Positions 14 to 34,505 of a DNA stretch of 40,769 nucleotides are shown piece by piece. Position numbers and translations under genes: made by a program. The stretch is from the NCBI GenBank assembly GCA_016934575.1, contig JAFGSN010000060.1:1-40769 (forward strand), in the 5' to 3' direction. This DNA comes from Vicinamibacteria bacterium (GTDB lineage Bacteria; Acidobacteriota; Vicinamibacteria; Fen-336). The number at the start of each line of letters is the position of its first letter. Within the stretch, counting starts at the first letter, position 1. The notes below the pieces were generated by a model, which had not been told where the DNA came from, did not search any database, and saw nothing but the letters and a program-made list of their open reading frames with translations.

Positions 14-793
14 CTAGCGTATCCCGCTCCTGAGCCAGCGAACGTGCGCCGCGAGATCGCCTTGCGGCTGCTCCTCGAGGAAGCGCACGAGACGGCTGCC
101 GACGACGACGCCGTCGGCGATCCGCCCTGCGTCCGCCACCTGTTCAGGCGTGGAGATTCCAAAGCCCAGCGCAACGGGAACGGGAGCGATGGCGCGGATA
201 CGCTCCACCATCGGGGCAGCCTCTTCTGAAAGCGCCGTTCGCTCACCCGTGATGCCGATGCGGCTGACTGCGTAGACAAAACCGCGCGAGCTTTCGACGA
301 TACGGCGCAGACGTTCCGGAGGGCTCGTCGGCGCGGCAAGAAACACGGTGTCGAGTTCGGCCGTCCAGGCCGTGTCTTTCCACGCCCGCCCTTCCTCGGG
401 AGGCAGATCCGTGACAAGAACGCCGTCGACGCCCGAGTCGCGCGCCTCGCCGGCCACGCGCTCGATGCCGTATCGCAAGATCGGGTTGAAGTAGGTGAAA
501 AGCAGCAACGGGATCTCGCTGCGCTTCCGGATCCGACGCGCGGCGTCGAGCACGCCGGCGAGCGTCACGCCGCGCTTGAGCGCTCGCTCGCTGCTGCGCT
601 GAATGGCGGGACCGTCGGCGAGCGGATCCGAAAACGGCACTCCCAGCTCGAGCACGTCGACGCCAGCGCCGTCGAGCTCGGCGGCGATCTCGATGGTGCG
701 CGCAAGCGACGGGTCGCCGGCCGTGACGAAGGCGATGAAAGCCTTGCGGCCTTCGCGTCGCAACGACTCGAAGCGCGTCCCGATGCGGGTCAT
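14..793 (-). CDS. trpA: Tryptophan synthase alpha subunit
   Basis: TrpA cleaves indole-3-glycerol phosphate to indole and glyceraldehyde 3-phosphate; the indole is channelled to TrpB. The 259-residue length and TIM-barrel motifs fit the family. The two catalytic acids sit at the textbook positions, Glu49 in [10 protein letters not shown] and Asp60 in LADGPAIQ. The phosphate-binding end ([15 protein letters not shown]) is intact. I chose the ATG at 793 because it overlaps the trpB stop by 4 bp (ATGA) and begins MTRIGTRFE; the frame stays open upstream, but that extension is Arg-rich antisense of trpB. This is the last gene of the aroD-his-trp operon. Only 13 bases remain after the stop, so the operon terminator is not visible. 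Confidence 0.97.
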
Positions 794-2016
794 GCGCCGC
801 GCTCCTCGGGCATATGACGCTCGACGATGTCGAGATCCTTGTCGCCGCGGCCGCTCAGGTTGAGCAGGACGTTCTTGCCGTGAAACGCCGCCGCCTCTCT
901 CATGATCCATGCAACCGCGTGAGCGGACTCGAGCGCCGGCAGGATGCCTTCGAGGCGGCCGAGCGTCTGAAACGCCTTGAGCGCTTCGGCGTCGCGCACG
1001 GTTCCGTAGCGCACGCGGCCGGCGTCGCGCAGGAAGGCGTGCTCCGGACCGATCGCCGGGTAATCCAGCCCGGCTGAAACCGAATGCGTCGGCAGAACGT
1101 TGCCCGTCTCGTCCTGGAGCAAATAGGTGCGCGAGCCCTGCAGAACGCCCACGGCCGCTCCGCCGCCGAGAAAACGCGAGGCATGATCGCCGGGACGATC
1201 GGAGCGCCCGCCCGCCTCCACGCCGACCATCTCCACGGGATCGTCGAGGAACGCGTGAAACAGGCCGATGGAGTTCGAGCCGCCTCCGACGCAGGCGACG
1301 AGGAGATCAGGCAGCGAATCGGTCCGTTCGAGGAACTGCCGGCGCGCCTCGCGGCCGATGACTATTTGAAAATCGCGCACCATCATCGGATAAGGATGCG
1401 CGCCCAGAACCGATCCCAGCAGGTAATGCGTCGTGCGCACGTTCGTGACCCAGTCGCGCATGGCCTCGTTGACGGCGTCCTTGAGCGTGCGCGAGCCGGC
1501 CTCGACTCCACGCACCGTGGCGCCGAGCAGGCGCATGCGCTGGACGTTGGGGGCTTGACGCGCCATGTCCTCAGTGCCCATGTAAACGACGCACTCGATT
1601 CCGAGCAGGGCGCAGACCGTGGCCGTGGCCACGCCGTGCTGGCCGGCGCCGGTTTCGGCCACGATACGGCGCTTGCCCATGCGCAAGGCGAGCAACGCCT
1701 GGCCGACGGCGTTGTTGATCTTGTGCGCGCCCGTGTGGCACAGATCCTCGCGCTTGAGCCACAGGTGGCAACCGAGCGTCCCCGAGAGGCGTTCAGCGTA
1801 CGAAATCGGCGTGGGCCGACCGACATAATCGCGCAGCAGCCGATCGAACTCACTAATAAAGACTGGATCGCGCCGCGCATCATTGTAGGCCCGACTCAGC
1901 TCGGCCAGCGGGTTCATGAGCGTCTCGGGCACATACTGTCCGCCGTAAGGACCAAAGCAGCCGGCGAGATCAGGAACCTCGTCCCAGGAGCGGCTTTCTT
2001 GCGTCGTCGTCACCAT
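790..2016 (-). CDS. trpB: Tryptophan synthase beta subunit
   Basis: TrpB is the PLP enzyme that condenses indole with serine to give tryptophan. The 408-residue protein carries the PLP lysine Lys99 in [12 protein letters not shown], the catalytic Glu121 in AETGAGQHG, and the cofactor-phosphate loop [25 protein letters not shown] near the N terminus is typical of the TrpB1 class that partners TrpA. The ATG at 2016 lies 4 bp after the trpF stop; longer in-frame starts run back into trpF and are rejected. It overlaps trpA by 4 bp. No catalytic residue is missing. Confidence 0.97.
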
Positions 2017-2020
2017 GTGA

Positions 2021-2662
2021 TCAGCTCGCCTCCTTCTCGAATCTTCGGACGGCCTCGACAAACGCGCGTAACTTTTCCGGATTCTTGCGGCCCGGCGCCG
2101 TCTCGACGCCGCTCGAGACATCGACCGCGTCGGGGCGGACCTGCGCAAGCGCCTCGTGGACGTTGTCCGGAGTCAGGCCGCCGGCGAGCACGAGGCGCTT
2201 CACGCGGTCGCGCACCTCACGGGCCAGTGACCAATCGAAGGTTCGCCCGGTCCCGCCCGGAACGCCGGCCGCGCCGCTGTCGAGGAGAATCCCGTCGACG
2301 CGGCCGGCATAGCGATCGACGGAATCGAGCGCAAAACCGGCGGCCACGCGCAACGCCTTGAGCGCTCGGCGCGGCAAACCGTGCAACTCTTCCGGAGGCT
2401 CGTCGCCATGGAGCTGGATCATGTCGAGACCGGCCTCGGCCGAAGTCCGCGCCAGTTCCTCGCGCGTCGCGTCGACGAAAACGCCGACGCGAACGACGAA
2501 CGGCGGAAGCGTCGCGATGATGAGGCGCGCGGTCGCGACGTCTACGGCGCGCGGGCTCCGCGGCCAGAAGACGAAGCCCAGCGCGGAAGCGCCGGCCTCC
2601 GTCGCCGCCGCCGCGTCCATGATGGAGGTGATCCCGCACACCTTGATCAGGATCCGGCTCAT
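2021..2662 (-). CDS. trpF: Phosphoribosylanthranilate isomerase
   Basis: TrpF isomerises N-(5-phosphoribosyl)anthranilate to CdRP, the third dedicated step to tryptophan. The 213-residue single-domain protein has the full motif set: KVCGIT with the catalytic Cys near residue 9, [38 protein letters not shown] and the GRKNPEKL tail. It is a stand-alone gene, not fused to trpC as in enterobacteria. The ATG at 2662 overlaps the trpC stop by 4 bp, which supports the start and suggests translational coupling. Confidence 0.97.
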
Positions 2663-3465
2663 CCGCGCGAGTCTCCGTCTTTTCCAGTAAGAGCGCGCAG
2701 CGCCTCGCCGGGATCGGGGGCGCGCATCAAATGCTCGCCGATGAGCAGCGCGTCATAGCCGGCTTCATACAGCCGGAGAGCGTCTTCCCGGCCGCGGATG
2801 CCGCTTTCCGACACCGCGACGACGTCGTCGGGGATGCGCGGGGACAGGCGCAGCGCCGTGCCGAGATCCACATCGAGAGAACGCAGATCGCGATTGTTGA
2901 CGCCCACGATGCAAGCGCCGGCCGAAAGCGCGCAATCGAGCTCGCGCTCGTCATGCACCTCGACCAGCGCATCGATCTGCGCCTTGTCGGCCACGCGCAA
3001 AAGCTCGCGCAGATCCGCGCTGCTCACGGCGGTCGCGATCAGGAGCACCGCGTCGGCCTCGACATGCCAGCTCTCCCAGATCTGGTATGGATCGACGATG
3101 AAATCCTTGCGCAGGACGGGAAGACGCGTCGCCTGCCGCGCCTGCTGTAAATCGGCCAGACTGCCGCCGAAATCCTGCTCCTCGGTCAGCACGGACAACG
3201 CCGCAGCGCCCGCCTTCTCGTACGCATGCGCCGCATGAACCACGGAAAGATCTTCGCGGATCGCGCCGCGCGAGGGTGATCGTCTCTTGAACTCGGCGAT
3301 CACTGCCGGACCGTCGCCGCGCGCAAGCACCGCGGAGAACGGCCGGCGCGTGGTGCGCGTCCTCGGCTGCGCGAGCATCTGATCGATGGAGAGCGCGGCG
3401 CGACGTCGAGCGACCTGCTCGTGAGCGCGCGCCACAATGCGCGTGAGAACGGTTTCACCTGTCAT
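2659..3465 (-). CDS. trpC: Indole-3-glycerol phosphate synthase
   Basis: TrpC closes the indole ring, converting CdRP to indole-3-glycerol phosphate. The 268-residue TIM barrel shows VIAEFKRRSPSRG (catalytic Lys), ALSVLTEEQDFGGS, LRKDFIVDPYQ (second Lys), VGVNNRDL and VSESGI. The ATG at 3465 (MTGETVLTRI) overlaps the trpD stop by 4 bp. The reading frame is open for a further 189 codons upstream, but that part is low-complexity Arg-rich antisense of trpD and is not coding. Confidence 0.97.
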   Translation of the reverse strand: MTGETVLTRIVARAHEQVARRRAALSIDQMLAQPRTRTTRRPFSAVLARGDGPAVIAEFKRRSPSRGAIREDLSVVHAAHAYEKAGAAALSVLTEEQDFGGSLADLQQARQATRLPVLRKDFIVDPYQIWESWHVEADAVLLIATAVSSADLRELLRVADKAQIDALVEVHDERELDCALSAGACIVGVNNRDLRSLDVDLGTALRLSPRIPDDVVAVSESGIRGREDALRLYEAGYDALLIGEHLMRAPDPGEALRALTGKDGDSRG

Positions 3466-4460
3466 TTTTGAGACAACTCCTTTACGCGATCGAGCAACGC
3501 GGCTGCCCGGCCGTCGTCCAGCGCCCGCGCAGCCTGGTCCAGGCCCTGGCGCAAGTCGGAGGCCCGTTCGGCCACGACCAGCGCGGCCGCGGCGTTGAAA
3601 AGAACGGCGTCTCGCCTGGGTCCGCGCGCTCCCGCCAGCAGCTCGCGCGCGATGCCGGCGCATCTCGCGGTGTCGCCGCCCTCGAGATCTTGCAGCGTGC
3701 AACGAGTCAAGCCGAAAGTCTCGGGTTCCAGCTCGAACGAGCGCACCTTGCCGTCCTCCACGGCGGCCACCGTACTCTTGCCGGAGGGAGACAGCTCGTC
3801 CAGCCCGGCGCCGTGCACGACCCAGACGCGCTCGATTCCCAGTCGATCGAGACAACGCGCCATGAAGGTCGTGAGCTCGGCGCGCGGCACGCCCACGACC
3901 TGGCCGCGCGGACGCGCGGGGTTGGTGAGCGGACCGAGCAGGTTGAAGGCCGTGCGCGCGCCGAGCTCCTTGCGCGGTCCCACCGCGTGCCGCGTTGAGG
4001 CATGAAAGCGCGGCGCGAAGATGAAAGTCCATCCGATCTCGTCCAGCAGGCGTTGAACCACTTCAATCTCCGGATCGATCTTGACGCCCAGCGCTTCCAG
4101 CACGTCGGCGCTTCCGCAGCGGCTGCTGGCCGATCGATTGCCGTGCTTGGCGACCGGAACGCCGCAGGCCGCGACGACGAGCGACGCCAGCGTCGAAACG
4201 TTGAACGTCCCCGCGCCGTCGCCTCCCGTGCCGCAGGTGTCGATCGCTCCCGAGGATCGCAGCGGCGCGGCCCGCTCGCGCATGACGCGCGCGAACCCGA
4301 CGATCTCGTCCTCGCTCTCCCCGCGCACGGCGAGAGCGGCGAGCAGAGCGCCGATCTGGGCCGGCGTGGCCGCGCCGTCCATGATCTTCTCCATGGCGCG
4401 CGCCGCCTCGTCCTCGGCCAGGCGCTCGCCGCGCATCAGTTTCTGAAGCTGTTCCTTCAT
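3462..4460 (-). CDS. trpD: Anthranilate phosphoribosyltransferase
   Basis: TrpD transfers phosphoribose from PRPP to anthranilate. The 332-residue protein has an N-terminal helical domain, the PRPP loop DTCGTGGDGAGTFNVST, KHGNRSASSRCGSADVLEALG and GPLTNPA, all family hallmarks. It is not fused to the TrpG amidotransferase. I start it at the ATG at 4460 (MKEQLQKL); a TTG one codon upstream is possible. It follows trpG after about 10 bp and overlaps trpC by 4 bp. Confidence 0.96.
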   Translation of the reverse strand: MKEQLQKLMRGERLAEDEAARAMEKIMDGAATPAQIGALLAALAVRGESEDEIVGFARVMRERAAPLRSSGAIDTCGTGGDGAGTFNVSTLASLVVAACGVPVAKHGNRSASSRCGSADVLEALGVKIDPEIEVVQRLLDEIGWTFIFAPRFHASTRHAVGPRKELGARTAFNLLGPLTNPARPRGQVVGVPRAELTTFMARCLDRLGIERVWVVHGAGLDELSPSGKSTVAAVEDGKVRSFELEPETFGLTRCTLQDLEGGDTARCAGIARELLAGARGPRRDAVLFNAAAALVVAERASDLRQGLDQAARALDDGRAAALLDRVKELSQK

Positions 4461-4470
4461 CAATCACCGT

Positions 4471-5046
4471 TCATCGAGATTCGATCCGAAGAAAGTTGCG
4501 TAAGAGATCCTTGCCGACTTCGGTCAAGATGCTCTCGGGATGAAACTGCACGCCCTCGAGCGGCAGCTCCTTGTGACGCAAGCCCATCACCAGATCGTCT
4601 TCCGTCCAGGCCGAGACTTCGAGGCTTTCCGGCACGGAATCGGAAGCGACGATCAGCGAGTGATAACGCGTGGCCGTGAACGGCCGCGGCAATCCGCCAA
4701 AGATCGTGCGCCCGTCATGGTGAATCTCGGAGGTCTTTCCGTGCATGAGCTTCGGCGCGCGCACGATTCTTCCGCCGAACGCCTGGCCGAACGCCTGATG
4801 TCCGAGGCACACGCCGAGCAAGGGAACCCGGGCGGCGGCGGCGCGCCGGATGACGTCAAGGCTGATCCCCGCCTGATCGGGATTGCCCGGACCGGGAGAG
4901 ATGACGATGCGCTCGGGCCGCAGCGCGAGCGCCTGCTCGGCCGTGATCTGGTCGTTGCGAACGACTTGCAGCTCCTCGCCCAACTCTCCCAGATACTGAT
5001 AGAGGTTGTAGGTGAATGAATCGTAGTTGTCGATCAGGAGGATCAT
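4471..5046 (-). CDS. trpG: Anthranilate synthase component II (glutamine amidotransferase)
   Basis: TrpG hydrolyses glutamine and passes ammonia to TrpE. This class I amidotransferase of 191 residues has the catalytic triad: Cys80 in [10 protein letters not shown], and His169/Glu171 in GVQFHPESI. The N terminus [18 protein letters not shown] and the PGPGNP oxyanion region are typical of TrpG/PabA. The ATG at 5046 overlaps the trpE stop by 4 bp, so component I and II are probably made in step. As the only such gene next to trpE here, it could also serve p-aminobenzoate synthase, as TrpG/PabA does in some bacteria; that is inference. Confidence 0.96.
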
Positions 5047-6506
5047 AGCTCCTCCGCCAGCGCGAGCGCGGCGAACAGCGCGCCGGCCTTGGCCTCAGTC
5101 TCGCGCTCTTCCGAGGCCGGATCGGAGTCGGCGACGATGCCGGCGCCGGCCTGGATCGTGGCGCGCCCGTCGCGCAGCATGATCGTCCGGATCGCGATGC
5201 AGAAGTCGAGATTGCCGCGCAGGTCGATGTAGCCGAGCGCTCCGCCGTAGAGACCGCGACGCGCGGGCTCCAGCTCGTCGATGATCTCCATCGCGCGAAT
5301 TTTGGGAGCCCCGGAGAGCGTACCGGCCGGAAAAGTCGCCACAAGCGCGTCGAGAGCGTCCTTGCCGGGAGCCAGCTCGCCCGCGACCGTGGACTCGATA
5401 TGCATCACGTGGGAGTAACGCTCGATCTGCATGAACTCCGGAACGCGCACGCTCGTGAAGCGGCAGACGCGTCCGAGGTCGTTGCGCCCAAGGTCGACCA
5501 GCATGATGTGCTCGGCGCGTTCCTTCTCGTCGGCCAACAGCTTCTCGGCCAGTCGCGCATCTTCGGCCGGAGTGGCGCCGCGCGGGTAGGTGCCGGCGAT
5601 CGGGCGCGTCTCGGCGCGTCGCCCGTCGACGCGCACCAGGCTTTCGGGCGAAGAGCCGGCGACGGCCGTGACGCCGTCCTTGACGAAATACATGTAGGGA
5701 GACGGATTGACCATGCGCAAGGCGCGGTAAACCGTGAAGGGATCGAGCGCGCAGTCGAGCGTTTTCTGTCTGGAAAGCACGACCTGGAAGATGTCGCCGA
5801 TCGCGATGTATTCCTTGGCATGCGCGACCGCCTCCCGGAACGCAGCGCCGCTTTCCAGCCCCGAGACGCGAGAAGCGGCGTTCCCCTTCTCCATGCGTCG
5901 TCGCGGCCGAACCGGGACCGAAAGGAGGTCATGCTCGAGCGCGTCCAGGATCTCTTGCGCGCGTTCGAAAGCGGAGCGACTTCCCGGCTCCGTGTTGGCA
6001 ATGAGCACCAGCCGCTGATGGACGTGATCGAAGGCCACGATCGAGCGATAAAAGGAAAAGGCCGCGAGCGGTGCATCCGGCGGCGCGTGGCGATCCGGGA
6101 TGCGTTCGAAGAGCCGGATTGCGTCATAGGACAGGCAACCCACGGCGCCGCCGGTGAAACGCGGCAGTCCGTTTACGTCGACGGCCGATCGCCCCGGCCC
6201 CAGAAGCCGCCGCAAGACGCTTAATAGATCGTCTGACACGAGACGCGTGCCCTCGCCGTCGCGCACGACGACGCCGTTTCCGCGCACCTCGACCGTGGCC
6301 ACCGGGTCGCGTCCGAGGAACGAATAGCGCGCGATGCGCTCGCCGCCGACGACGCTCTCGAGCAGAAAGGCGCGCTCCGAGCGCGCTGAAAGTTGTAAGA
6401 ACGCCGAGACCGGCGTGAAAAGATCGGCGGCGACGTCGCGATGGACCGGAACGAGGCCGCCCGAAGCCGAGAGCCGCTCGTAGTCCTCGTAAGTCAGGGT
6501 CCTCAT
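5043..6506 (-). CDS. trpE: Anthranilate synthase component I
   Basis: TrpE converts chorismate plus ammonia to anthranilate, the committed step to tryptophan. The 487-residue protein has the chorismate-binding fold with [29 protein letters not shown] and [21 protein letters not shown] near residue 48 matches the LLES element that binds feedback-inhibiting tryptophan, so allosteric control by Trp is likely on top of attenuation. Its ATG at 6506 overlaps the hisIE stop by 4 bp: this is the exact joint between the his and trp blocks, with no room for a separate trp promoter or leader. Confidence 0.97.
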
Positions 6507-7117
6507 CGCGGCCCTCTTCGCTTCTTGAGCTCCTGCAACACGCGGCTCAGGGCGACGCCGCGCTGGGCCAGCGCGACCTCGAGGTGAAAGAGCAGATCGG
6601 CCGCTTCCTCGATGACACGCTCGGAGTCGTCGCCTTTCGCCGCCAGAACGAGCTCGGTCGCCTCCTCGCCGATTTTCTCGAGAGAACGATCCAGACCGCC
6701 GTCAAGCAGGCGCACCGTGTAGGATCCTTCGGGCCGCCGCTTCGCGCGATCGGCGATGACGCGCTCGATCTCGGCCAGGACCCCGGCGTCGGTGGCGGAG
6801 TCCTCCCCGAAGCAAGTGCGCATCCCGGTGTGGCACGTCGGTCCGGCGGGCTCCGCGATCAACAGGATGACGTCGCGATCGCAATCGGTGCGCGCTTCGC
6901 GCACGCGCAGAACGTTGCCGGAGGTCTCGCCCTTCTTCCAGAGCTTCCGGCGGCTGCGGCTCCAGAAGTGCGCGTAACCCGTCTCCTCGGCGCGCCGCAA
7001 GGCTTCGTCGTTGGCATAGCCGACCATCAGTAAGTCGCCGCTCGTCACGTCCTGGACGACGACCGGTATCAATCCCGACGCGTCGTACTTGAGATCACGC
7101 GGCATCGTCGCGCTCAT
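6503..7117 (-). CDS. hisI: Bifunctional phosphoribosyl-AMP cyclohydrolase / phosphoribosyl-ATP pyrophosphatase
   Basis: This HisIE fusion does steps 2 and 3 of histidine synthesis. Residues 1 to about 105 are the zinc-dependent HisI cyclohydrolase, with the metal cysteines Cys79 (ARTDCDRD), Cys95 and Cys102 (PTCHTGMRTCF). Residues about 115-204 are the HisE pyrophosphohydrolase, with LEKIGEEATELVLAAKGDD and EEAADLLFHLEV. The 204-residue length is normal for HisIE. The ATG at 7117 (MSATMPRDL) lies just after the hisF stop; Met5 is an alternative. Its stop overlaps trpE. Confidence 0.96.
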   Translation of the reverse strand: MSATMPRDLKYDASGLIPVVVQDVTSGDLLMVGYANDEALRRAEETGYAHFWSRSRRKLWKKGETSGNVLRVREARTDCDRDVILLIAEPAGPTCHTGMRTCFGEDSATDAGVLAEIERVIADRAKRRPEGSYTVRLLDGGLDRSLEKIGEEATELVLAAKGDDSERVIEEAADLLFHLEVALAQRGVALSRVLQELKKRRGPR

Positions 7118-7120
7118 CCT

Positions 7121-7888
7121 CTAAATCCTCACTGTCACGCCCGCCGCGCGCAACTCGCGCTTCGCCTCGGGAACGCGGATCTCCCCGAAATGAAAGATAG
7201 ACGCGGCCAGAGCGGCGCTCGCCTCTCCCTCGCGCAGGACCTCGATCATGTGCGCGATCGTCCCGCATCCGCCCGATGCGATCACCGGCACGCGCACGGC
7301 GCGCGCCACGTCGCGAGTGAGCGCGATGTCGAAACCGTCCCTGGTTCCGTCGCGATCCATGCTCGTCAGCAGAATCTCGCCTGCGCCGCGCGCGACGCCT
7401 TGTCGCGCCCAGTCCACGGCGTCGATCCCCGTGGGCATGCGCCCTCCGCGGACATGGACCTCCCAACGCTCCGGGCCGCAAGCGCGGGCGTCGATCGCCA
7501 GCACCGTCGCCTGCGAGCCGAAGCGGCGCGCGATGCGCGTGAGCAGATCGGGATCGCCGACGGCGGCGGTGTTCACCGCGATCTTGTCGGCGCCAGCGCG
7601 CAGCAGCTCCTCGGCGTCCTCGATCACGCGCACGCCGCCGCCGACCGTGATGGGCAGAAACACCGAATCCGCCACGCGGCGCGCCACGTCGAGCATGATC
7701 GGCCGCGCGTCCGACGACGCGGTGATGTCGAGAAAGACCAACTCGTCGGCGCCCTCCTCGTCGTATCGGACGGCGCACTCGACGGGATCGCCGGCGTCGC
7801 GCAGCGACACGAACTGCACGCCTTTGACCACGCGCCCGCGGTCGACGTCAAGACAGGGAATGATTCTCTTCGCCAGCATTCTCGTCAT
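7121..7888 (-). CDS. hisF: Imidazole glycerol phosphate synthase cyclase subunit
   Basis: HisF uses ammonia from HisH to turn PRFAR into imidazole glycerol phosphate and AICAR. The TIM barrel has both catalytic aspartates, in [11 protein letters not shown] and [10 protein letters not shown], plus [14 protein letters not shown] and VIASGGCG. Homologues normally begin [11 protein letters not shown], which would be the ATG at 7879 (252 aa); I give the in-frame ATG at 7888 (MTRMLAKR, 255 aa), and neither has a clear ribosome-binding site. A 37-bp gap separates it from hisA. Confidence 0.95.
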
Positions 7889-7925
7889 GAACCGTAAAAA
7901 CAAGGAGCGTCGGAAGGCGTCGTCG

Positions 7926-8681
7926 TCATTCCGATCGCTCCTTGTCGTCGTCTATCGTGGTCGCCGCGATCGCCTCGGCCAGCGTGAACCGGCGTTCATA
8001 AAGCGCCTTGCCCACGATGACCTCATCGACGCCCAGAGGCGCCAACGCGGCCGTTCTCCGAATGTCGTCGAGCGTCGAGACGCCTCCGGCCGCCGTGATC
8101 CTGAGACCGCTGGCGCGCGCGATCGCGGCCGTCTGCTCCAGGTTCGGGCCGACGAGCATGCCGTCGCGCGTGACGTCGGTGTATTGCAGGCGCGTCACGC
8201 CCAGTCCGCGGATGCGCGCGGCGAGATCGAGCGCCGAAACGGCGCTTGTCACGCGCCATCCGACGACCACGGCCATTCCCTCGCGCGCATCGAGCGCCAC
8301 GGCCACCTTGCCGCCCCAATCGCGCGCGGCCCGTTCGACGACCTCGGGCGCGGCCAGGGCCGCGGTTCCGAAGATGACGCGGTCAACGCCGCGCTCGATG
8401 TAGCGCGCCGCCTGCTCCCGCGTTCGAATCCCGCCCCCCGCCTCCACGGGAATGCCCGCGGCCGCGATGATCGCGCCGACGACGTCCGTCTGCGGCTTGC
8501 CGTCGATGGCGCCGTCAAGATCGACGACGTGCAGGCGGAGGGCGCCCTGCGCGGCCCAGGCGCGCGCCGTCTCGACGGGATCGTCCCCATACACCGTCTC
8601 ATCGGAGGGACGGCCCTCGCGCAGGCGCACGACTTTGCCCCGGCGCAGATCGACGGCTGGAACGACGATCAGCTTGCTCAT
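7926..8681 (-). CDS. hisA: ProFAR isomerase (phosphoribosylformimino-AICAR-phosphate isomerase)
   Basis: HisA opens the ribose of ProFAR to give PRFAR, the HisF substrate. The 251-residue half-barrel-repeat protein has the acid/base aspartates in [15 protein letters not shown] and [10 protein letters not shown], and the [10 protein letters not shown] and ITAAGGVST phosphate loops. Some bacteria use this protein (PriA) for the TrpF reaction too; here a dedicated trpF exists, so ordinary HisA activity is expected. The ATG at 8681 overlaps the hisH stop by 4 bp. Confidence 0.95.
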
Positions 8682-9322
8682 GCCCCCTCCGAAACGGCGA
8701 CCGTCGCCGCACGAACGCCGGCGGCGACCCAGCGCGCGAAGTTGCCCACCATGCGCAATCCGACGGCCTGGCTTTTCTCCGGATGAAACTGAACGCCCAG
8801 AACGTTGCCGCGACCGACGATTGCGGCAAACTCGTGGCCGTAATCGGAGCGGGCCAGCACGATCTCGTCGGCCGCGTCGCAGAAGTAAGAATGGACGAAG
8901 TAGACGAAATCTCCTTCGCCAACGCCTTCGAGCAGAGGATGGGCGCGGCGGCGCACCAGAGCGTTCCAGCCCATGTGCGGCACGACGAGATCATCGGAGA
9001 AACGCCGGACTCGCCCGGGCAGACACCTCAGCCCGACATGTTTTCCATGCTCCTCGCTTTCTTCGAACAGAAGCTGCATCCCGACGCAGATCCCGAGCAG
9101 CGGCTTGCCCTTCGCGACCGCCTCGTGGAGCGCGGGAATCAGATCGAGACGGCGCAGCTCGGCGATCGCCGCGCCGAACGCGCCGTCGCCGGGCAGAACC
9201 AGGGCGCTCGCTCTTCGCAGCTCGCGCGGGTCGCCGGTGAGAACGGCCGGAGCGCCAACATGGCGGAACGCCTTGGCGACGCTCCCGAGGTTGCCGATTC
9301 CGTAATCTACGATCGCGATCAT
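8678..9322 (-). CDS. hisH: Imidazole glycerol phosphate synthase glutaminase subunit
   Basis: HisH hydrolyses glutamine and feeds ammonia through the HisF barrel. The 214-residue class I amidotransferase has the nucleophile Cys79 in [15 protein letters not shown] and the dyad His190/Glu192 in [22 protein letters not shown] at the N terminus is diagnostic. It lies 42 bp after hisB and overlaps hisA by 4 bp, next to its partner genes as is usual. Confidence 0.96.
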
Positions 9323-9364: not shown

Positions 9365-10015
9365 CTAGAGCGCTCCTTTCGTGCTCGGCACGCCGAGCGC
9401 CCGCGGATCTCGCGCCGCCGCCATGGCGAGGGCGCGCGCCGCGGCCTTGAAGAGCGCCTCCGCGACATGGTGCGCGCTCCGGCCGCGCAGCAGATCGAGA
9501 TGCAGATTGAAGCGCCCGTTGTCGCTGAACGCACGGAAGAAGTCCTCGAAGAGCTCGACCGGCATCGATCCGACATACTGCGCGCCGAAACCGACTTCGT
9601 AGTGGAGAAACACGCGGCCGGAGAGGTCGACGACGCAGCGGACCAGGGTCTCGTCGAACGGCACGTATGCATGACCGAAGCGAGTGACGCCCTTCTTGTC
9701 GCCGAGCGCTTGAGCAAGCGCCTCGCCCAGGACGATGCCCACGTCCTCGACGACGTGATGGGCGTCGACATGCAGGTCCCCCTTGCACGTTACCTTGAGG
9801 TCGAAGCGGGCGTGCGTGGCCAGGGCGGCGAGCATGTGGTCGAAGAAGCCGATGCCCGTGGAAATCTCCGCCGCTCCTCGACCGTCAAGGTCGAGAAAGA
9901 GATTGATGTCCGTCTCGCGCGTCTTTCGGTGCAGAATGGCGCGGCGGGGCAACGCCGCGGGCGGCGTCACGGCGGACGACGCCGGTTTGGCGGACGTGGT
10001 TTTCTTCTCCTTCAT
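9365..10015 (-). CDS. hisB: Imidazoleglycerol-phosphate dehydratase
   Basis: HisB dehydrates imidazole glycerol phosphate to imidazole acetol phosphate. This is the single-function dehydratase: there is no HisN-type phosphatase domain in front, so histidinol phosphatase must be encoded elsewhere. Metal-binding histidine motifs are present: GFFDHML, VDAHHVVEDVGI and SAHHVAEALFKA. Two starts compete: an ATG at 10030 overlaps the hisC stop, but AAGGAGG follows it and sits at good spacing before the ATG at 10015, so I chose 10015 (216 aa). The first 24 residues are a Lys/Ala/Pro tail of no known role. Confidence 0.95.
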   Translation of the reverse strand: MKEKKTTSAKPASSAVTPPAALPRRAILHRKTRETDINLFLDLDGRGAAEISTGIGFFDHMLAALATHARFDLKVTCKGDLHVDAHHVVEDVGIVLGEALAQALGDKKGVTRFGHAYVPFDETLVRCVVDLSGRVFLHYEVGFGAQYVGSMPVELFEDFFRAFSDNGRFNLHLDLLRGRSAHHVAEALFKAAARALAMAAARDPRALGVPSTKGAL

Positions 10016-10026
10016 TGGGTCCTCCT

Positions 10027-11130
10027 TCATGCAAGAATCTCGCGCAGCGCCGCGACGAGCGTCTCATTCTCCGATGCGGAGCCGACGCTCGCGCGCAAAC
10101 AACGTGAGAGTCGCGGATAGGACGTCACGTCGCGGACCAGCACGCCGCGACGAGCCAGGGAATCGAACACGATCTTGGGATCCTTCTCGATGAGCTCCAG
10201 GAGCAAAAAGTTCGCGCGGGAGGGATAGACACGCAACCCCGGCAGCGCGCCAAGCGACTCGGACAACGACTCCCGGAGCGCCACGAGTCGCCGCACTCCC
10301 TCAGCCAGCGTTTCAGGCTCGGCCAGCGCGGCGATCGCCGCCGTCTGCGTGAAGAAATTGACGTTGTAGGGCAGGCGCGCCTTGTTCACCTCGCGCACGA
10401 GATCGGGCGAGGCGAGCAGATATCCCAGCCGCAGGCCGGCCATGGCCATGGCCTTGGAGAAAGTTCTCAGAACGACGAGATTCGGATGGCGCGAGAGAAG
10501 CGGAACGGCGCTCACGCCGGAGAACTCGTGATACGCCTCGTCCACGACGACCAAGCCGTCCTCCTCCGCGCACAGGTCGGCGATCCGTTCCGGCGCGATC
10601 CAACCGCCAGTGGGATTGTTCGGCGTGCACAGGATCAGAAGCGGCGCTCCCGACTCGCGCCGCGCGACGCGCAGAGCGTCCATGTCGTACTCGAGGTCCG
10701 GACCGAGGCCGGCCGTGACCGGCGCGCCGCCGAGCACTCTCACGAGCAGGGCATAAACCGTGAAGGTCGGTTGCGGTATGACGACGCGCGTGCCCGGACT
10801 CACCGTCGCCAGAAGCAGCGCCTCGATCATCTCGTTCGAACCGTTGCCGGCGAGGATCCCGTCCGCGCGCCATCCCGAATGCCGCGCGAGCGCCTCGATC
10901 AGCTCGCGCGGATCGAATTCCGGATAGCGCGCCCACGGCCGCGCGAGGGCGCGATCGACGATCTTGCGCTTGAGCGCATCGGGCAGCTCGAAGGGATTCT
11001 CGTTCTGATCGATCTTGACGGAAACCCGGCGGGGGGCAAGCGTGTAGGCGCTCAGCGCGCGCACGGCGGGCTTGACGAACCGCAACGGATCCCGCGGCTT
11101 TCCGCTTGTCGTCATACGTTTCGCGCTCAT
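10027..11130 (-). CDS. hisC: Histidinol-phosphate aminotransferase
   Basis: HisC is the PLP aminotransferase that makes histidinol phosphate from imidazole acetol phosphate. The 367-residue fold type I protein shows KIDQNENPFELP, NGSNEMIE, CTPNNPTGGW, VVDEAYHEF, and the PLP lysine in RTFSKAMAMAGLRLGY. The ATG at 11130 (MSAKRMTTSG) overlaps the hisD stop by 4 bp; the ATG at 11115 is an alternative. HisC enzymes often accept aromatic substrates, so overlap with Phe/Tyr transamination is possible, but the sequence cannot settle that. Confidence 0.95.
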   Translation of the reverse strand: MSAKRMTTSGKPRDPLRFVKPAVRALSAYTLAPRRVSVKIDQNENPFELPDALKRKIVDRALARPWARYPEFDPRELIEALARHSGWRADGILAGNGSNEMIEALLLATVSPGTRVVIPQPTFTVYALLVRVLGGAPVTAGLGPDLEYDMDALRVARRESGAPLLILCTPNNPTGGWIAPERIADLCAEEDGLVVVDEAYHEFSGVSAVPLLSRHPNLVVLRTFSKAMAMAGLRLGYLLASPDLVREVNKARLPYNVNFFTQTAAIAALAEPETLAEGVRRLVALRESLSESLGALPGLRVYPSRANFLLLELIEKDPKIVFDSLARRGVLVRDVTSYPRLSRCLRASVGSASENETLVAALREILA

Positions 11131-12422
11131 TCCGCGAACCTCGTGAGCACGCTCTGCGCGTGTCCCGTCAGGCCCTCGGCCTCCGCCACGCGCGCCACGT
11201 CGGACGCGACGCGGCGCAGGCCGGCGCGTGTGAGCTTCACCTGACTCTGTCGCCGCACGAAATCGCGCACGGAGAGCGCCGACGTGAAGCGCGCCGTTCC
11301 GCCCGTCGGCAAGACGTGATTCGGACCGACGCCGTAGTCGCCCACGGACACGGGCGTCCAGTGCCCAACGAACACCGCTCCGGCGATGATGCGCTTCGCG
11401 ATGGATTCGGCGTCTCGCGTCATGACTTCCGCATGCTCGGGCGCGAGAAGATTGCACGCCTCCACGGCCGCGTCGAGATCCCGCACGAGCACGATCGCGC
11501 CCTGTCGCGCCAGCGCCTTGCGCGTGGTCGCGACGTTGGCGACCGAGCGTGCGCCCTCATCGACAAGCCTCTTGACCTCGATCGCGAGCTTCCGCGCGGG
11601 CGTCACGAGCGCCACGATCTCCGAGCCGGAGCCGTGCTCCGCCTGTGCCAGAAGATCGACGGCCGCCCAGCCGGCGTCGGCCGTCTCGTCCGCGAGGATC
11701 ACGACCTCGCTCGGGCCGGCCTCTTGGTCGATGTCCACGGTCCCGCGGACCTGGCGTTTGGCCTCGGTCACGTAGGCGTTGCCGGGACCGACGATCTTGG
11801 AAACGGCGGGCACGGAGGCCGTGCCGTAAGCGAGCGCCGCGACGGCCTGGGCGCCGCCGATGCGATAGACAGAGCCCTCGAGCCCGACGATCACGAGCGC
11901 CGCCGCGATCGCGGGATTCGTGTCGAGCGCCCGAGGCGGCGTCACGACCTCGATGCGCGGCACGCCGGCGACGCGCGCCGGAACGGCGTTCATGAGCACC
12001 GAGGACGGATAGGCGGCCGCGCCGCCGGGAACGTAAAGACCGGCGGCGTCGATCGGCGTGATTCGCTCCACGAGCGTCGAACCGTCGGGAAGACGCAGGC
12101 TGAAACCGCGTTCGATTTGCCGGCGATGATACCTCTCGATGTTCCGTGCCATGCGGCCCAGCGCGGCGGCGAGCTTGGGATCGGCCCGTCGAGCCCGCGC
12201 GCGGATCTCTTCGGACGAGACATGGATCCGTTTTGAATCCAGCCGAATCCCGTCGAGGCGAGCCGTCAAGCGCACGAGCGCCCGATCTCCGTCGCGGCGC
12301 ACGTCCCTGATGATGGTTTGAACGGCGCGCTCCACGCGCAACGAGCGCGAGGAGGAGCGCGGCAGACGCTCCAGATAACGACGCCATTCCGACTCGCCGT
12401 AACGAAGGATACGCATCGTCAT
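11127..12422 (-). CDS. hisD: Histidinol dehydrogenase
   Basis: HisD oxidises histidinol to histidine in two NAD-dependent steps. The 431-residue enzyme has the zinc ligands and catalytic pair in expected places: LLAQAEHGSGSE (Gln, His), LLAPEHAEVM (Glu-His), VGDYGVGPNHVLPTGG (Asp) and a late GHAQSV histidine. AGLYVPGG and VGPGNAYV are also typical. It is the first his gene in transcription order and overlaps the aroD stop by 4 bp. A hisG gene, often placed beside hisD, is absent from the window. Confidence 0.97.
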   Translation of the reverse strand: MTMRILRYGESEWRRYLERLPRSSSRSLRVERAVQTIIRDVRRDGDRALVRLTARLDGIRLDSKRIHVSSEEIRARARRADPKLAAALGRMARNIERYHRRQIERGFSLRLPDGSTLVERITPIDAAGLYVPGGAAAYPSSVLMNAVPARVAGVPRIEVVTPPRALDTNPAIAAALVIVGLEGSVYRIGGAQAVAALAYGTASVPAVSKIVGPGNAYVTEAKRQVRGTVDIDQEAGPSEVVILADETADAGWAAVDLLAQAEHGSGSEIVALVTPARKLAIEVKRLVDEGARSVANVATTRKALARQGAIVLVRDLDAAVEACNLLAPEHAEVMTRDAESIAKRIIAGAVFVGHWTPVSVGDYGVGPNHVLPTGGTARFTSALSVRDFVRRQSQVKLTRAGLRRVASDVARVAEAEGLTGHAQSVLTRFAE

Positions 12423-13543
12423 CGTCCGTTCTCCGCTCGTCCGGAATCACGACTCATGGCGGCGAACGCCTCTCGCATGACGTCTCGGGTCGCCGGGCGG
12501 CCGGTCCATGTCTCGACCTGCCGGGCCGCTTGTGCGAGAAACGCCTCGGGATCGCCGTTCACGATGCGACTCGAATCCGGATGCGTTGCGATTCCGCGCA
12601 AACGCCCGTCCTCCACGATGACGGTGTCGACGCGGCCGGAGCGGCGCGCCGCGCCGTCGACCTCGTCAAGATGATCGAGAATCTCGCTCTCGTACGATCC
12701 CGTCACGCTGAAGCCCGACAGCCGTATCCCTGGAAGCGCCGCGAGAAACGGCGGCAGCGCCTCGGCTTCGAGTGGAACGCAGACGGAGTCGACGCCGAGC
12801 GCCCGGAAACAGCGGTTATGGACGACAAGCGCGGGATTCGTGCGCACGTTCCGGCCGAGAACGCCGTACGCACGCGTTCGCGGATTGATTTCGCGAACGC
12901 GATAGAGATCGGCCATGAGCGCGATCGAAATCTGCCCGGGCGCGGCCTCTGCCCCTGTCTGCGCCGAGGCGAACATGAAGGGGACGCGATCACGGCCGCC
13001 CAGAATGCGCGTGACTGCTCCCAGAGGGCCCATCGCGATCGGGATCAACGGCGGTCCATCGCCCTCCGCCACCCGGCCGGCGAGGGCCATGAGTCGGCCG
13101 ACGTCCGCGAGCGAGCGGGGCGTGCCGGCGATCTTGACGATGTCCGCGCCCGTTGCGGCCATGCGGCGATAGAGCGTGTCCAGATCGTGCGGGATGCCCG
13201 CAAGATCATGAAAAGAAACCACGAGCCCGCGGCCGGCTTTCGCCGACATGATGTCATGGAAACCGCTCTGGAGGTTGACGTCGACGAAGTCGTAGCCGCG
13301 CTCCGTTGCCTCGAGCAACCGGAGACGTCGATCGGGATCGTCGTCCGGCCACAGACCGCCCTCGGATCGAGGAAGACAGGTGAGAAGCAGCGGTCGACAC
13401 CGAGCCTCCAGGATCGCGGCGAGGGCAAGGTCTTCCACGAGATCGCCGCGCACCTCGAAAAGATCGGCCTGTCGGGACAGCCGGGCCATGCCGTCTATCG
13501 TCGCCTTGGTGGTCTTCTCCGCCAGACTCACGCAGATGCGCAT
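12419..13543 (-). CDS. aroD: Type I 3-dehydroquinate dehydratase fused to a degenerate shikimate-dehydrogenase-like domain
   Basis: Residues 1 to about 218 are a type I dehydroquinate dehydratase (shikimate pathway). Glu30, Arg32, Glu61, His112, Schiff-base Lys137, Arg179 and Gln204 (APGQI) match catalytic and substrate residues, although the usual Arg before EGG (TFRSAKEGG in enterics) is Leu57. Residues 226-321 resemble the substrate domain of shikimate dehydrogenase, and 330-362 resemble its last helix (FLAQAARQVETWTGR). The whole NADP domain between them is gone. The catalytic Lys of NVTxPxK is Glu285 (SVTGSYE) and the NTD aspartate is His321 (ATH), so the second domain should be inactive. 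Met at 13543 has GTGAGG upstream; the frame stays open further, but that covers the attenuator. First gene of the operon. Confidence 0.9.
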   Translation of the reverse strand: MRICVSLAEKTTKATIDGMARLSRQADLFEVRGDLVEDLALAAILEARCRPLLLTCLPRSEGGLWPDDDPDRRLRLLEATERGYDFVDVNLQSGFHDIMSAKAGRGLVVSFHDLAGIPHDLDTLYRRMAATGADIVKIAGTPRSLADVGRLMALAGRVAEGDGPPLIPIAMGPLGAVTRILGGRDRVPFMFASAQTGAEAAPGQISIALMADLYRVREINPRTRAYGVLGRNVRTNPALVVHNRCFRALGVDSVCVPLEAEALPPFLAALPGIRLSGFSVTGSYESEILDHLDEVDGAARRSGRVDTVIVEDGRLRGIATHPDSSRIVNGDPEAFLAQAARQVETWTGRPATRDVMREAFAAMSRDSGRAENGR

Positions 13544-13557
13544 CAATGCCTCACAAC

Positions 13558-13590
13558 AAAAAAGCCTCTCCAGGGTTTCCTGAAGAGGCT
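13558..13590 (-). terminator. Intrinsic terminator of the leader (attenuator, helix 5:6)
   Basis: On the minus strand a 12-bp stem (AGCCTCTTCAGG with CCTGGAGAGGCT, one U-G pair, loop AAAC, 13590-13563) is followed by five more U residues (13562-13558) and then, 14 nt further on, the aroD start. A perfect terminator between promoter and first gene is the signature of transcription attenuation. The RNA stretch 13623-13612 can pair over 12 positions (two G-U) with 13584-13573, which would take this stem apart. Confidence 0.9.
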
Positions 13591-13611
13591 TCGTCGCCCG
13601 TGACTGGTCTT

Positions 13612-13671
13612 TCCAGAAAACCCGCTCTCGCTGCCGCGAGCGGGCCTCCGGGCCCGCCGCTAGCCGCGGCG
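13612..13671 (-). promoter_or_regulatory. Alternative helices of the his-trp leader (segments 1-4)
   Basis: Read as RNA on the minus strand, four segments can pair only with a neighbour. 1:2 is CGCCGC (13671-13666) with GCGGCG (13660-13655). 2:3 is GCGGGCC (13657-13651) with GGCCCGC (13646-13640), loop CGGA. 3:4 is CCCGCUC (13644-13638) with GAGCGGG (13627-13621), followed by UUUU. Segment 4 (13623-13612) also pairs with segment 5 of the downstream terminator. Segment 1 lies in the last codons of the leader peptide and segment 2 begins at its stop codon, the layout expected for ribosome-controlled attenuation. Pairings were checked by base complementarity only; no energies were computed. Confidence 0.8.
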
Positions 13672-13749
13672 ATGATGGGTCGAACGCCACCAGAAGATCA
13701 GATTTCGGCCGACCAGCGAGCCTTTGCGATCTGAGCGTAGTGACCTCAT
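13660..13749 (-). CDS. Leader peptide with tandem Trp and tandem His codons
   Basis: A 29-codon open frame runs from ATG at 13749 to TAG at 13660, between the promoter and the terminator that precedes aroD. Its end reads IFWWRSTHHRRG: two adjacent TGG codons (13692-13687) and two adjacent CAT codons (13677-13672), the two amino acids made by the operon behind it. Leader peptides of trp and his attenuators work by ribosome stalling at such codons. No Shine-Dalgarno sequence precedes the ATG, and the predicted transcript starts only about 2-5 nt upstream, so translation is probably leaderless. The same frame continues upstream as a longer ORF, but that part lies before the promoter and does not look like protein. 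Confidence 0.88.
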   Translation of the reverse strand: MRSLRSDRKGSLVGRNLIFWWRSTHHRRG

Positions 13750-13759
13750 CGGAAGGCTG

Positions 13760-13788
13760 ATACTAGAAGAAGGAAATATTGATGTCAA
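13760..13788 (-). promoter_or_regulatory. Promoter of the aroD-his-trp operon
   Basis: On the minus strand TTGACA (13788-13783) and TAGTAT (13765-13760) are separated by exactly 17 nt, an almost consensus sigma70 promoter. The predicted start near 13753 lies just before the leader-peptide ATG at 13749. It is the only strong promoter I see for the fifteen genes that follow. Confidence 0.85.
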
Positions 13789-14002
13789 GCTGCTATTCCC
13801 TGTCGGTCTTTCAAGAAAAGCGATACGAAACAGCTTGCGATAAGTATGATAGCGGCGCCGGGCGGAAATGCCGTCAGCATGGGCGCGAGGATGTCCGAGA
13901 TGACGATGGGGGGGCGGCTTCCCCGAGCAGGCTCTCGGCGCGGAACGGGAGCTCCTCGAACAACAGCGCCGTATCGATGAGCAACAGGAGGCTGGATCTC
14001 CT
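13786..14002 (-). pseudogene. Possible frameshifted small membrane-protein relic
   Basis: Two frames read like protein and join at a run of seven C (minus strand; 13908-13914). The first, directly behind the CE2 gene, reads LLLLIDTALLFEELPFRAES; the second reads IVISDILAPMLTAF and then one hydrophobic segment (AAIILIASCFVSLFL), ending in a TGA that overlaps the TTGACA of the operon promoter. I do not recognise a family and no good start codon is visible, although AGGAG occurs at 14002-13998. It could be a decayed gene, a sequencing slip in the homopolymer, or chance. Confidence 0.3.
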
Positions 14003-23876: not shown

Positions 23877-23905
23877 TTGACGGCACGTTGCTTTCCTGCC
23901 AGACT
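23877..23905 (+). promoter_or_regulatory. Candidate promoter of the cobalamin riboswitch operon
   Basis: TTGACG (23877-23882) and CAGACT (23900-23905) are 17 nt apart. The -10 box is poor, but the predicted start near 23912 coincides with the first paired base of the riboswitch, which supports the call. Confidence 0.4.
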
Positions 23906-23911
23906 CCGCTG

Positions 23912-24100
23912 CGTTCAGGGCGCCCCTCATGGGGAGGGGCAAAGAGGGAAGCAGGTCCAAAGCCTGCGCGGTCCCGCCACTGTAGCCGGCGAGCCCGCCT
24001 CACATGGCGTCTATAAAGACGCCGCCACTCGGGTCGGACGACCCGGGGAAGGCCGGAGGCGATCGCGACGACCCGGAAGCCAGGAAACCTGCCCTGATCG
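23912..24100 (+). ncRNA. Cobalamin (AdoCbl) riboswitch
   Basis: The conserved elements occur in order: AGAGGGAAGC at 23943, CCGCCACTGT at 23974-23983 (the GCCACTG core) and the B12 box GAAGCCAGGAAACCTGCC at 24076-24093. The closing stem pairs 23912-23921 (CGTTCAGGGC) with 24091-24100 (GCCCTGATCG) with one mismatch. Such elements bind adenosylcobalamin and switch off the genes behind them, here the BtuB-type receptor and the uptake transporter. Peripheral stems differ from the enteric btuB example and were not folded. Confidence 0.9.
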
Positions 24101-24198
24101 GAATCCAGAGGCTTCTCGCGAGAAGGAGCTACGGATGTTGGACAGATCGGACCCATCTTGGGCCGGAATCCCATCCTCGATCCCATGTCGCGCTGAGC

Positions 24199-34451: not shown

Positions 34452-34505
34452 CGCGCGCCCTTCCACGCAGGGGCCGCGACGCGTTGCGTTCCCGCGTGGC
34501 TGCGT

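Follow-up and report, generated by a model that had tools for sequence, protein, structure and literature searches.

A leader with both Trp and His codons is a probable two-input attenuator of an aroDE-his-trp operon in Vicinamibacteria

We propose that the aroDE-his-trp operon of a Vicinamibacteria bacterium is controlled by ribosome-mediated attenuation of transcription, and that the attenuator responds to two amino acids, tryptophan and histidine. We consider this likely, with the caveat that, in the absence of expression data, the either/or logic is inferred, as are ribosome stalling, read-through, and termination. In contrast, sequence comparison does show that the parts of an attenuator are present, that they are conserved, that the codons in the leader are linked to operon content across the phylum, and that the RNA can form mutually exclusive pairings. 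If the proposal is correct, then two textbook attenuators (trp and his) are joined in one leader that governs both pathways at once.

The stretch of DNA that we analyzed (the window) is contig JAFGSN010000060.1, with 40,769 nucleotides. The initial annotation of the window had described a near-consensus promoter, a 29-codon leader with TGG TGG and CAT CAT, exclusive helices, and a strong terminator, and all of these were confirmed in the sequence (Table 1). One promoter of this quality was found, versus 0.1 expected in shuffled sequences. The leader meets three general criteria for an attenuator: a short ORF that is rich in codons for the products of the operon lies between the promoter and the first structural gene, an intrinsic terminator lies between this ORF and the first gene, and there is a conserved antiterminator whose formation excludes the terminator. 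The encoded peptide ends with WWRSTHHRRG. The fold of the whole leader has a free energy of -96 kcal/mol (z = -3.9). An Rfam search of the window found no amino-acid leader (His_leader or Trp_leader) at the gathering score and no T-box. The sole Rfam match was a distant cobalamin riboswitch (23901-24110, + strand, 101.8 bits), which precedes genes for a TonB-dependent receptor, a diphthamide-synthase-like protein, a periplasmic binding protein, and a FecCD permease. We also noticed an ORF of 646 codons without any Pfam match (32526-34466, - strand).

Table 1. Positions in the window of the leader, its RNA segments, and the genes of the operon (segments are named as in the text).
Feature	Position	Strand	Comment
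Promoter, sigma-70 type, TTGACA-17-TAGTAT	13760..13788	-	10/12 consensus matches; TTGAC invariant in 11/11 family members
Leader ORF, 29 codons, MRSLRSDRKGSLVGRNLIFWWRSTHHRRG and stop TAG	13660..13749	-	
Tandem Trp codons TGG TGG (W20 W21)	13687..13692	-	Second lies at the TGG kept in 11/11 relatives
Tandem His codons CAT CAT (H25 H26)	13672..13677	-	Relatives have 2-5 His codons, with both CAT and CAC used
Segment A, CGCCGC, end of leader ORF	13666..13671	-	Can pair with B
Segment B, GCGGCGGGCC, at and just past the stop	13651..13660	-	Pairs with A or C
Segment C, CCCGGAGGCCCGC	13640..13652	-	Pairs with D (shielding D) or B
Segment D, GCGGGTTTTCTGGA, antiterminator arm	13612..13625	-	
Segment E, TTCAGGAAACCC	13573..13584	-	Forms the antiterminator with D, or else the loop and 5' side of the terminator
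Intrinsic terminator, E:F stem and T run	about 13558..13592	-	14-bp stem
aroDE fusion	12419..13543	-	DHQase half intact; AroE half lacks NADP-binding domain
hisD	11127..12422	-	
hisC	10027..11130	-	5' end approximate
hisB (imidazoleglycerol-phosphate dehydratase)	9365..10030	-	
hisH	8678..9322	-	
hisA	7926..8681	-	
hisF	7121..7903	-	
hisIE	6503..7117	-	
trpE	5043..6506	-	4-base overlap with hisIE
trpG	4471..5046	-	
trpD	3462..4463	-	
trpC	2659..3460	-	5' end approximate
trpF	2021..2662	-	
trpB	790..2020	-	5' end approximate
trpA	14..800	-	5' end approximate

In the window, the start codon of the leader ORF is only 10 bases past the -10 box (13760-13747, - strand), and this distance is 7-8 bases in two relatives (G005 and G011). 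Because the ATG is so close to the -10 box, it is possible that the leader peptide is translated from a nearly leaderless transcript.

The genes behind the leader are in the order aroDE-hisDCBHAF(IE)-trpEGDCFBA, all on the minus strand, and neighbors either overlap or are a short distance apart. Seven trp genes and seven his genes had been claimed in the initial annotation, and both sets held (hisD, C, B, H, A, F, and IE; trpE, G, D, C, F, B, and A). As trpE overlaps hisIE, the trp genes do not have a leader of their own in the window. The claim that the first gene is aroD was only partly right: it is a fusion of aroD and aroE with a broken AroE half. About 110 residues of this half, including the NADP-binding domain, are deleted in frame, and the AroE motif SLSPVLHN and the Lys of VTRPFK are altered. 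There is a distant second AroE-like match elsewhere in the genome (contig C163). Relatives have thiF, hisZ, and a short-form hisG between aroDE and hisD; these are missing from the window (at the 12422/12419 junction). A long-form hisG lies on another contig of the same genome (G000 C88:47894-48373).

Our sample of the window's family comprised 14 genomes, including the window's own. We found aroDE in 12 of these, and the region upstream was present in 11. In all 11, a leader of the form W-R-x-x-(F/V)-H.., a stop codon, segments D and E, and a terminator precede aroDE. Besides the window's, the leader peptides end with WRPIFHRYHRT, WRPTFHHHRHYD, WRTVFHYHWHP, WRATVHHHRYHA, WRAVFHYWHP, WRGSVHHHRHHS (twice), WRPFFHFRYHP, WRGMFHSHYRHP, and WRPVFRHHRYHP. 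Most of them have a single Trp codon, not two. The only invariant codons (11/11) are this TGG and the Arg codon that follows it, with Arg encoded by three synonyms. On contigs that are long enough, the family's operon is aroDE-thiF-hisZ-G-D-C-B-H-A-F-IE-trpE-G-D-C-F-B-A. The promoter, ORF, terminator, and antiterminator are kept across the 11 genomes, with family aroDE being about 47-59% identical to that of the window. The proposal in the initial annotation was to be refuted if homologous upstream regions lacked both the codon pairs and the terminator. We ran this test and it was not met, as Trp, His, and the terminator are kept in 11/11 genomes.

Assuming ordinary codon frequencies, we estimate that an adjacent Trp pair and an adjacent His pair would occur by chance in one 29-codon ORF with p ~1e-4 or less. 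(This is a calculation of ours and not the output of a tool.) Given that 11 relatives carry these codons, a chance origin is untenable.

We built a covariance model of the dual leader (R1). Across 193 genomes of the class, its strong matches (E < 1e-18) were the 11 aroDE leaders and nothing else. Weak matches within the class (E from 1e-5 to 0.1) were not counted; part of these are Trp leaders of aroDE and part are unrelated. Across 396 genomes of the phylum, R1 had a weak match in G406 (E = 2e-6), a member of a second class. This genome has the leader AAAWWRGVHHHGNR, a terminator, and then aroDE-hisZ-G-D-C-B-H-A-F-IE-trpE-G-D-C-F-B-A, and its aroDE is only 34% identical to the aroDE of the window's family.

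Altogether, dual leaders precede aroDE in at least 12 genomes of the second class (G406 and at least eleven more), from six families. The operon is aroDE-hisZGDCBHAF(IE)-trpEGDCFBA, and on long contigs the operons with dual leaders run through his into trp, with one exception (G604; see below). Examples of these leaders are AWWRGVHHHGNR, GWWHGVHHHGDF, and AWAWRTHHHHAVS (the last from G602); others are AWAWRGHHHHSVS, GWWWHGVHHFGS, SWWHGVHHGV, RWRRSGHHHVVS, GWWGFVHHHVE, EWWSSVHHWTAL, and SWWAHGHGKG. Most have two or three Trp codons. Two genomes (G558 and G559, loci L197 and L196) have a fused his-trp operon behind aroDE, yet we did not recognize a leader upstream of aroDE in either. In both, aroDE and hisZ are also separated by an additional hisZ-like gene.

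At the loci that we examined in the window's own class but outside its family, the his and trp genes are in separate operons, nearly all with single-amino-acid leaders. We examined 26 aroDE-trpEG loci, which are aroDE-trp operons without his genes, and 25 of them have a Trp-only leader, that is, a leader without a His run in which two to four Trp codons are among the final 22 residues (for example, AWWYWCPTGEAHRSV). For the remaining locus (in G035), we did not obtain a Trp leader. The antiterminator arm of the Trp-only leaders lies inside the ORF (for example, GGAGAGGC pairs with GCCTCTTC of the terminator), and the helix score summed over the 25 leaders was 601, versus 346 (sd 14.5) for shuffles. 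Across the class, Trp-only leaders are at loci L062, L064-L067, and L130-L149, and the arm within the ORF is in Glu-Ala or Glu-Gly codons. We did not find any description of this family of Trp-only aroDE-trp attenuators in the literature that we searched. In the seven same-class genomes outside the family that we examined for his genes, a separate operon (hisIE-G-D-C-B-H-F-A) has its own His-rich leader, with runs such as HHHHH, HHAHRSHHH, or HHHHRH and no Trp. His-rich leaders of separate his operons, including that of G448 (see below), are at L088-L092, L094, L095, and L151. There are also partial superoperons, with aroDE-thiF-hisC-hisB in G030 and aroDE-thiF in family f2 (L063, L060, and L061), and these have no clear Trp or dual leader.

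Comparison of the sequences thus shows that leader codons track operon content in two classes: Trp-only leaders are on aroDE-trp operons, His-only leaders are on separate his operons, and dual leaders are on fused operons. The relatives act as natural experiments in which the removal of one gene set goes with the loss of the matching codons. In G604, the sister of G602, the leader (SVVVHHHPVI) lost its Trp codons and kept HHH. Its aroDE-his contig ends at hisF, and a complete trpEGDCFBA lies in the middle of a contig elsewhere, with no his genes beside it. In G563, the leader (CWRGRAQHRLS) kept Trp and lost the HHH run; its operon is aroDE-trp, and we found no match to hisD in the draft genome. 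Both G604 and G563 are nested among relatives with dual leaders. G448 has a hisZ-G-D-C operon whose leader has six His codons in a row and lacks Trp. One case goes against the loss of codons with genes: G560 has no match to hisD, yet its leader retains Trp and H-V-H. In all, hisD was not found in six draft genomes in which trpE follows aroDE (G563, G566, G560, G568, G576, and G578). As these are draft genomes, and the search had no positive control, we view the absence of hisD as supportive but not final. It is possible that these six bacteria are histidine auxotrophs.

The leader RNA can form five helices with shared segments (A:B, B:C, C:D, D:E, and E:F), and pairings that use the same segment are mutually exclusive. 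The alignment cells are paired in 121/121 cases for E:F, 112/117 for D:E, and 103/126 for C:D. The covariation score for C:D and E:F together was reached by just 2 of 500 shuffles. For D:E alone, the covariation is modest, as 45 of 500 shuffles reached the observed score. RNAalifold on the full leader alignment gave almost no covariation term (-0.05) because the alternative helices share segments. We also considered a helix between the segment 3' of TGG and the stretch that separates D from E, which by eye is perfect in G003 and G009, but we dropped it as most members do not have it.

In the proposed mechanism, RNA polymerase would start at the promoter and transcribe the leader while a ribosome trails on the 29-codon ORF. 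If charged Trp-tRNA and His-tRNA were both ample, the ribosome would reach the stop codon and cover segment B, so that C:D and E:F would form and transcription would end near 13558. If either were scarce, the ribosome would stall on the Trp codons or the His codons, and B:C and D:E would form instead. With D:E formed there would be no terminator, and the whole aroDE-his-trp operon would be transcribed.

We modeled these states by masked folding, in which the footprint of the ribosome is hidden, with 12 bases ahead of the A-site codon. (Up to 12 bases after the stop codon are used in PMC4833913.) As the null, we shuffled the segment between the stop and D (100 shuffles). A stall at the first His codon was predicted to favor D:E more than the stop position did in 11/11 family members, and a Trp stall did so in 9/11. 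In the two exceptions (G005 and G011), the Trp stall was predicted to be no better than the stop. Summed across the family, the stop-minus-Trp difference was 16.0 kcal/mol (null -5.7, sd 6.8) and the stop-minus-His difference was 33.9 kcal/mol (null -2.7, sd 7.9). The corresponding sums for the second class were 54.1 for Trp (null -3.9, sd 8.7) and 65.7 for His (null -3.1, sd 8.7). None of these four sums was reached by any of 100 shuffles. In the second class, D and E were picked automatically and may be wrong in G406, G490, and G519. For the window itself, the predicted values were +1.8 kcal/mol with no ribosome, -2.1 for the Trp stall, -5.2 and -4.0 for the His stalls, and +0.6 at the stop. 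These predicted stall-dependent structures fit the needs of an either/or attenuator.

The folding results also have complications. At equilibrium, the stop state itself favors D:E in 9/11 family members, so either the switch must be kinetic or our assumption about the footprint is imperfect. If the fold is halted before E has been made, a His stall opens C:D in most family members and a Trp stall leaves A:B and C:D intact in most of them. (In the window, C:D is closed under both stalls.) Since this early fold is closed under a Trp stall, the predicted Trp response depends on rearrangement once E appears. The model predicts that His is the stronger input in the window's family, with its stall nearer the switch, and we think this is probably correct. 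Sensitivity to Trp is probably weaker there because most of the leaders have one Trp codon, and for the same reason a His response has better support in this family than a Trp response.

The best of the alternatives is that the leader is in practice a His attenuator, with Trp codons that remain from a trp leader and matter little. In favor of this, segment A overlaps the codons beside the His pair, the predicted switch is larger for a His stall, C:D in the fold before E is opened by His stalls, not by Trp stalls, in the majority of family members, and the majority of the family's leaders contain a single Trp codon. However, that TGG is invariant in 11/11 family leaders while neighboring codons drift; two or three Trp codons are present in most leaders of the second class; G604, whose trp genes are elsewhere, has lost its Trp codons, and G563, where hisD was not found, has retained Trp; and the predicted Trp switch beats all shuffles in both classes. 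We consider this alternative to be unlikely.

A second alternative, which we think is very unlikely, is that RNA pairing, and not translation, is the reason for the retention of the TGG-CG and CAY codons. In several members, a pairing of UGGCG with the CGCYA of segment A is visible by eye. However, in G006 and G012, segment A is changed so that this pairing is weakened, and TGG is retained. Also, both CAT and CAC are used for His, the codons of the leader track the content of the operon, and leaders from the second class share the Trp and His codons in a different base context. Lastly, without expression data for this organism, the leader might be a remnant, with the operon expressed mainly from elsewhere or constitutively, but this is highly improbable given that the promoter, ORF, terminator, and antiterminator are kept in 11 genomes despite the divergence of aroDE, and in the second class as well.

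We return to the preferred reading, a two-input attenuator. The initial annotation had suggested that a single leader senses a shortage of either amino acid and opens the whole operon; comparison and folding support this, experiment does not yet, and the system reaches beyond the window's genome. As to its origin, we considered a recent transfer of the operon from one class to the other and rejected it as unlikely, because in the trees of hisD and hisF the window's family groups with its own class, apart from the second class (support of 0.95 and 0.94, respectively). The trpE tree does not resolve whether the classes separate (0.48). The identical gene order suggests that an ancestral superoperon was broken up across most of the window's class, although independent assembly is also possible. 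A bolder reading is that the either/or attenuator on the aroDE-his-trp superoperon predates the split of the two classes, and that the break-up of the superoperon split the leader into Trp-only and His-only forms. This could as easily be wrong as right; if true, the codons of the regulator change in step with the genes of the operon. With this system, one can test how a single leader balances two signals of starvation, and how regulation is re-established after operons have fused or split. Our results also suggest that ribosome-mediated attenuation is common in this phylum, with little written about it in the literature that we searched. (In PMC4833913, Acidobacteria are mentioned solely in connection with leader genes near start codons.)

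The initial annotation knew of no dual Trp/His leader, and we found no description of one on an aroDE-his-trp superoperon in the literature that we searched, which leaves out most subscription journals. Ribosome-mediated attenuation and leaders with codons for several amino acids are known; as far as we searched, the combination of Trp and His on this superoperon is new. The closest system for His is the his attenuator of Salmonella and E. coli (hisL, Rfam His_leader). It too has a run of His codons in a short leader ORF, a chain of alternative helices, and an extra hairpin between the leader and the terminator (PMC1183508) that shuts away the antiterminator arm unless the ribosome stalls. Unlike it, the window's leader also has Trp codons, drives his, trp, and aroDE, and does not match the Rfam model.

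For Trp, the leader resembles trpL and the class's Trp-only aroDE-trp leaders in having Trp codons, an intrinsic terminator, and an antiterminator. The Trp-only leaders also occupy the same site upstream of aroDE and share the terminator arm GCCTCTTCAG with the dual leader. However, their antiterminator arm is within the leader ORF. As the arm of the dual leader is instead 3' of the stop codon, behind a shielding hairpin, we infer (from the sequence alone) that the dual leader is not merely a Trp leader with His codons added.

The trp supraoperon of Bacillus subtilis (aro-trp-hisC-tyrA-aroE) also has aromatic genes, trp genes, and a his gene in one unit. It differs in that the TRAP protein controls it at the trp leader, in having only one his gene (hisC, which is also used for aromatics), and in having no known Trp/His leader peptide. 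In E. coli, the thr leader has codons for Thr and Ile, and the ilvGMEDA leader has codons for Ile, Val, and Leu (both operons are listed in PMC1183508). These are alike in that one leader contains codons for several relevant product amino acids. Those amino acids come from one connected or branched pathway, whereas here two separate pathways share one operon and would be sensed together.
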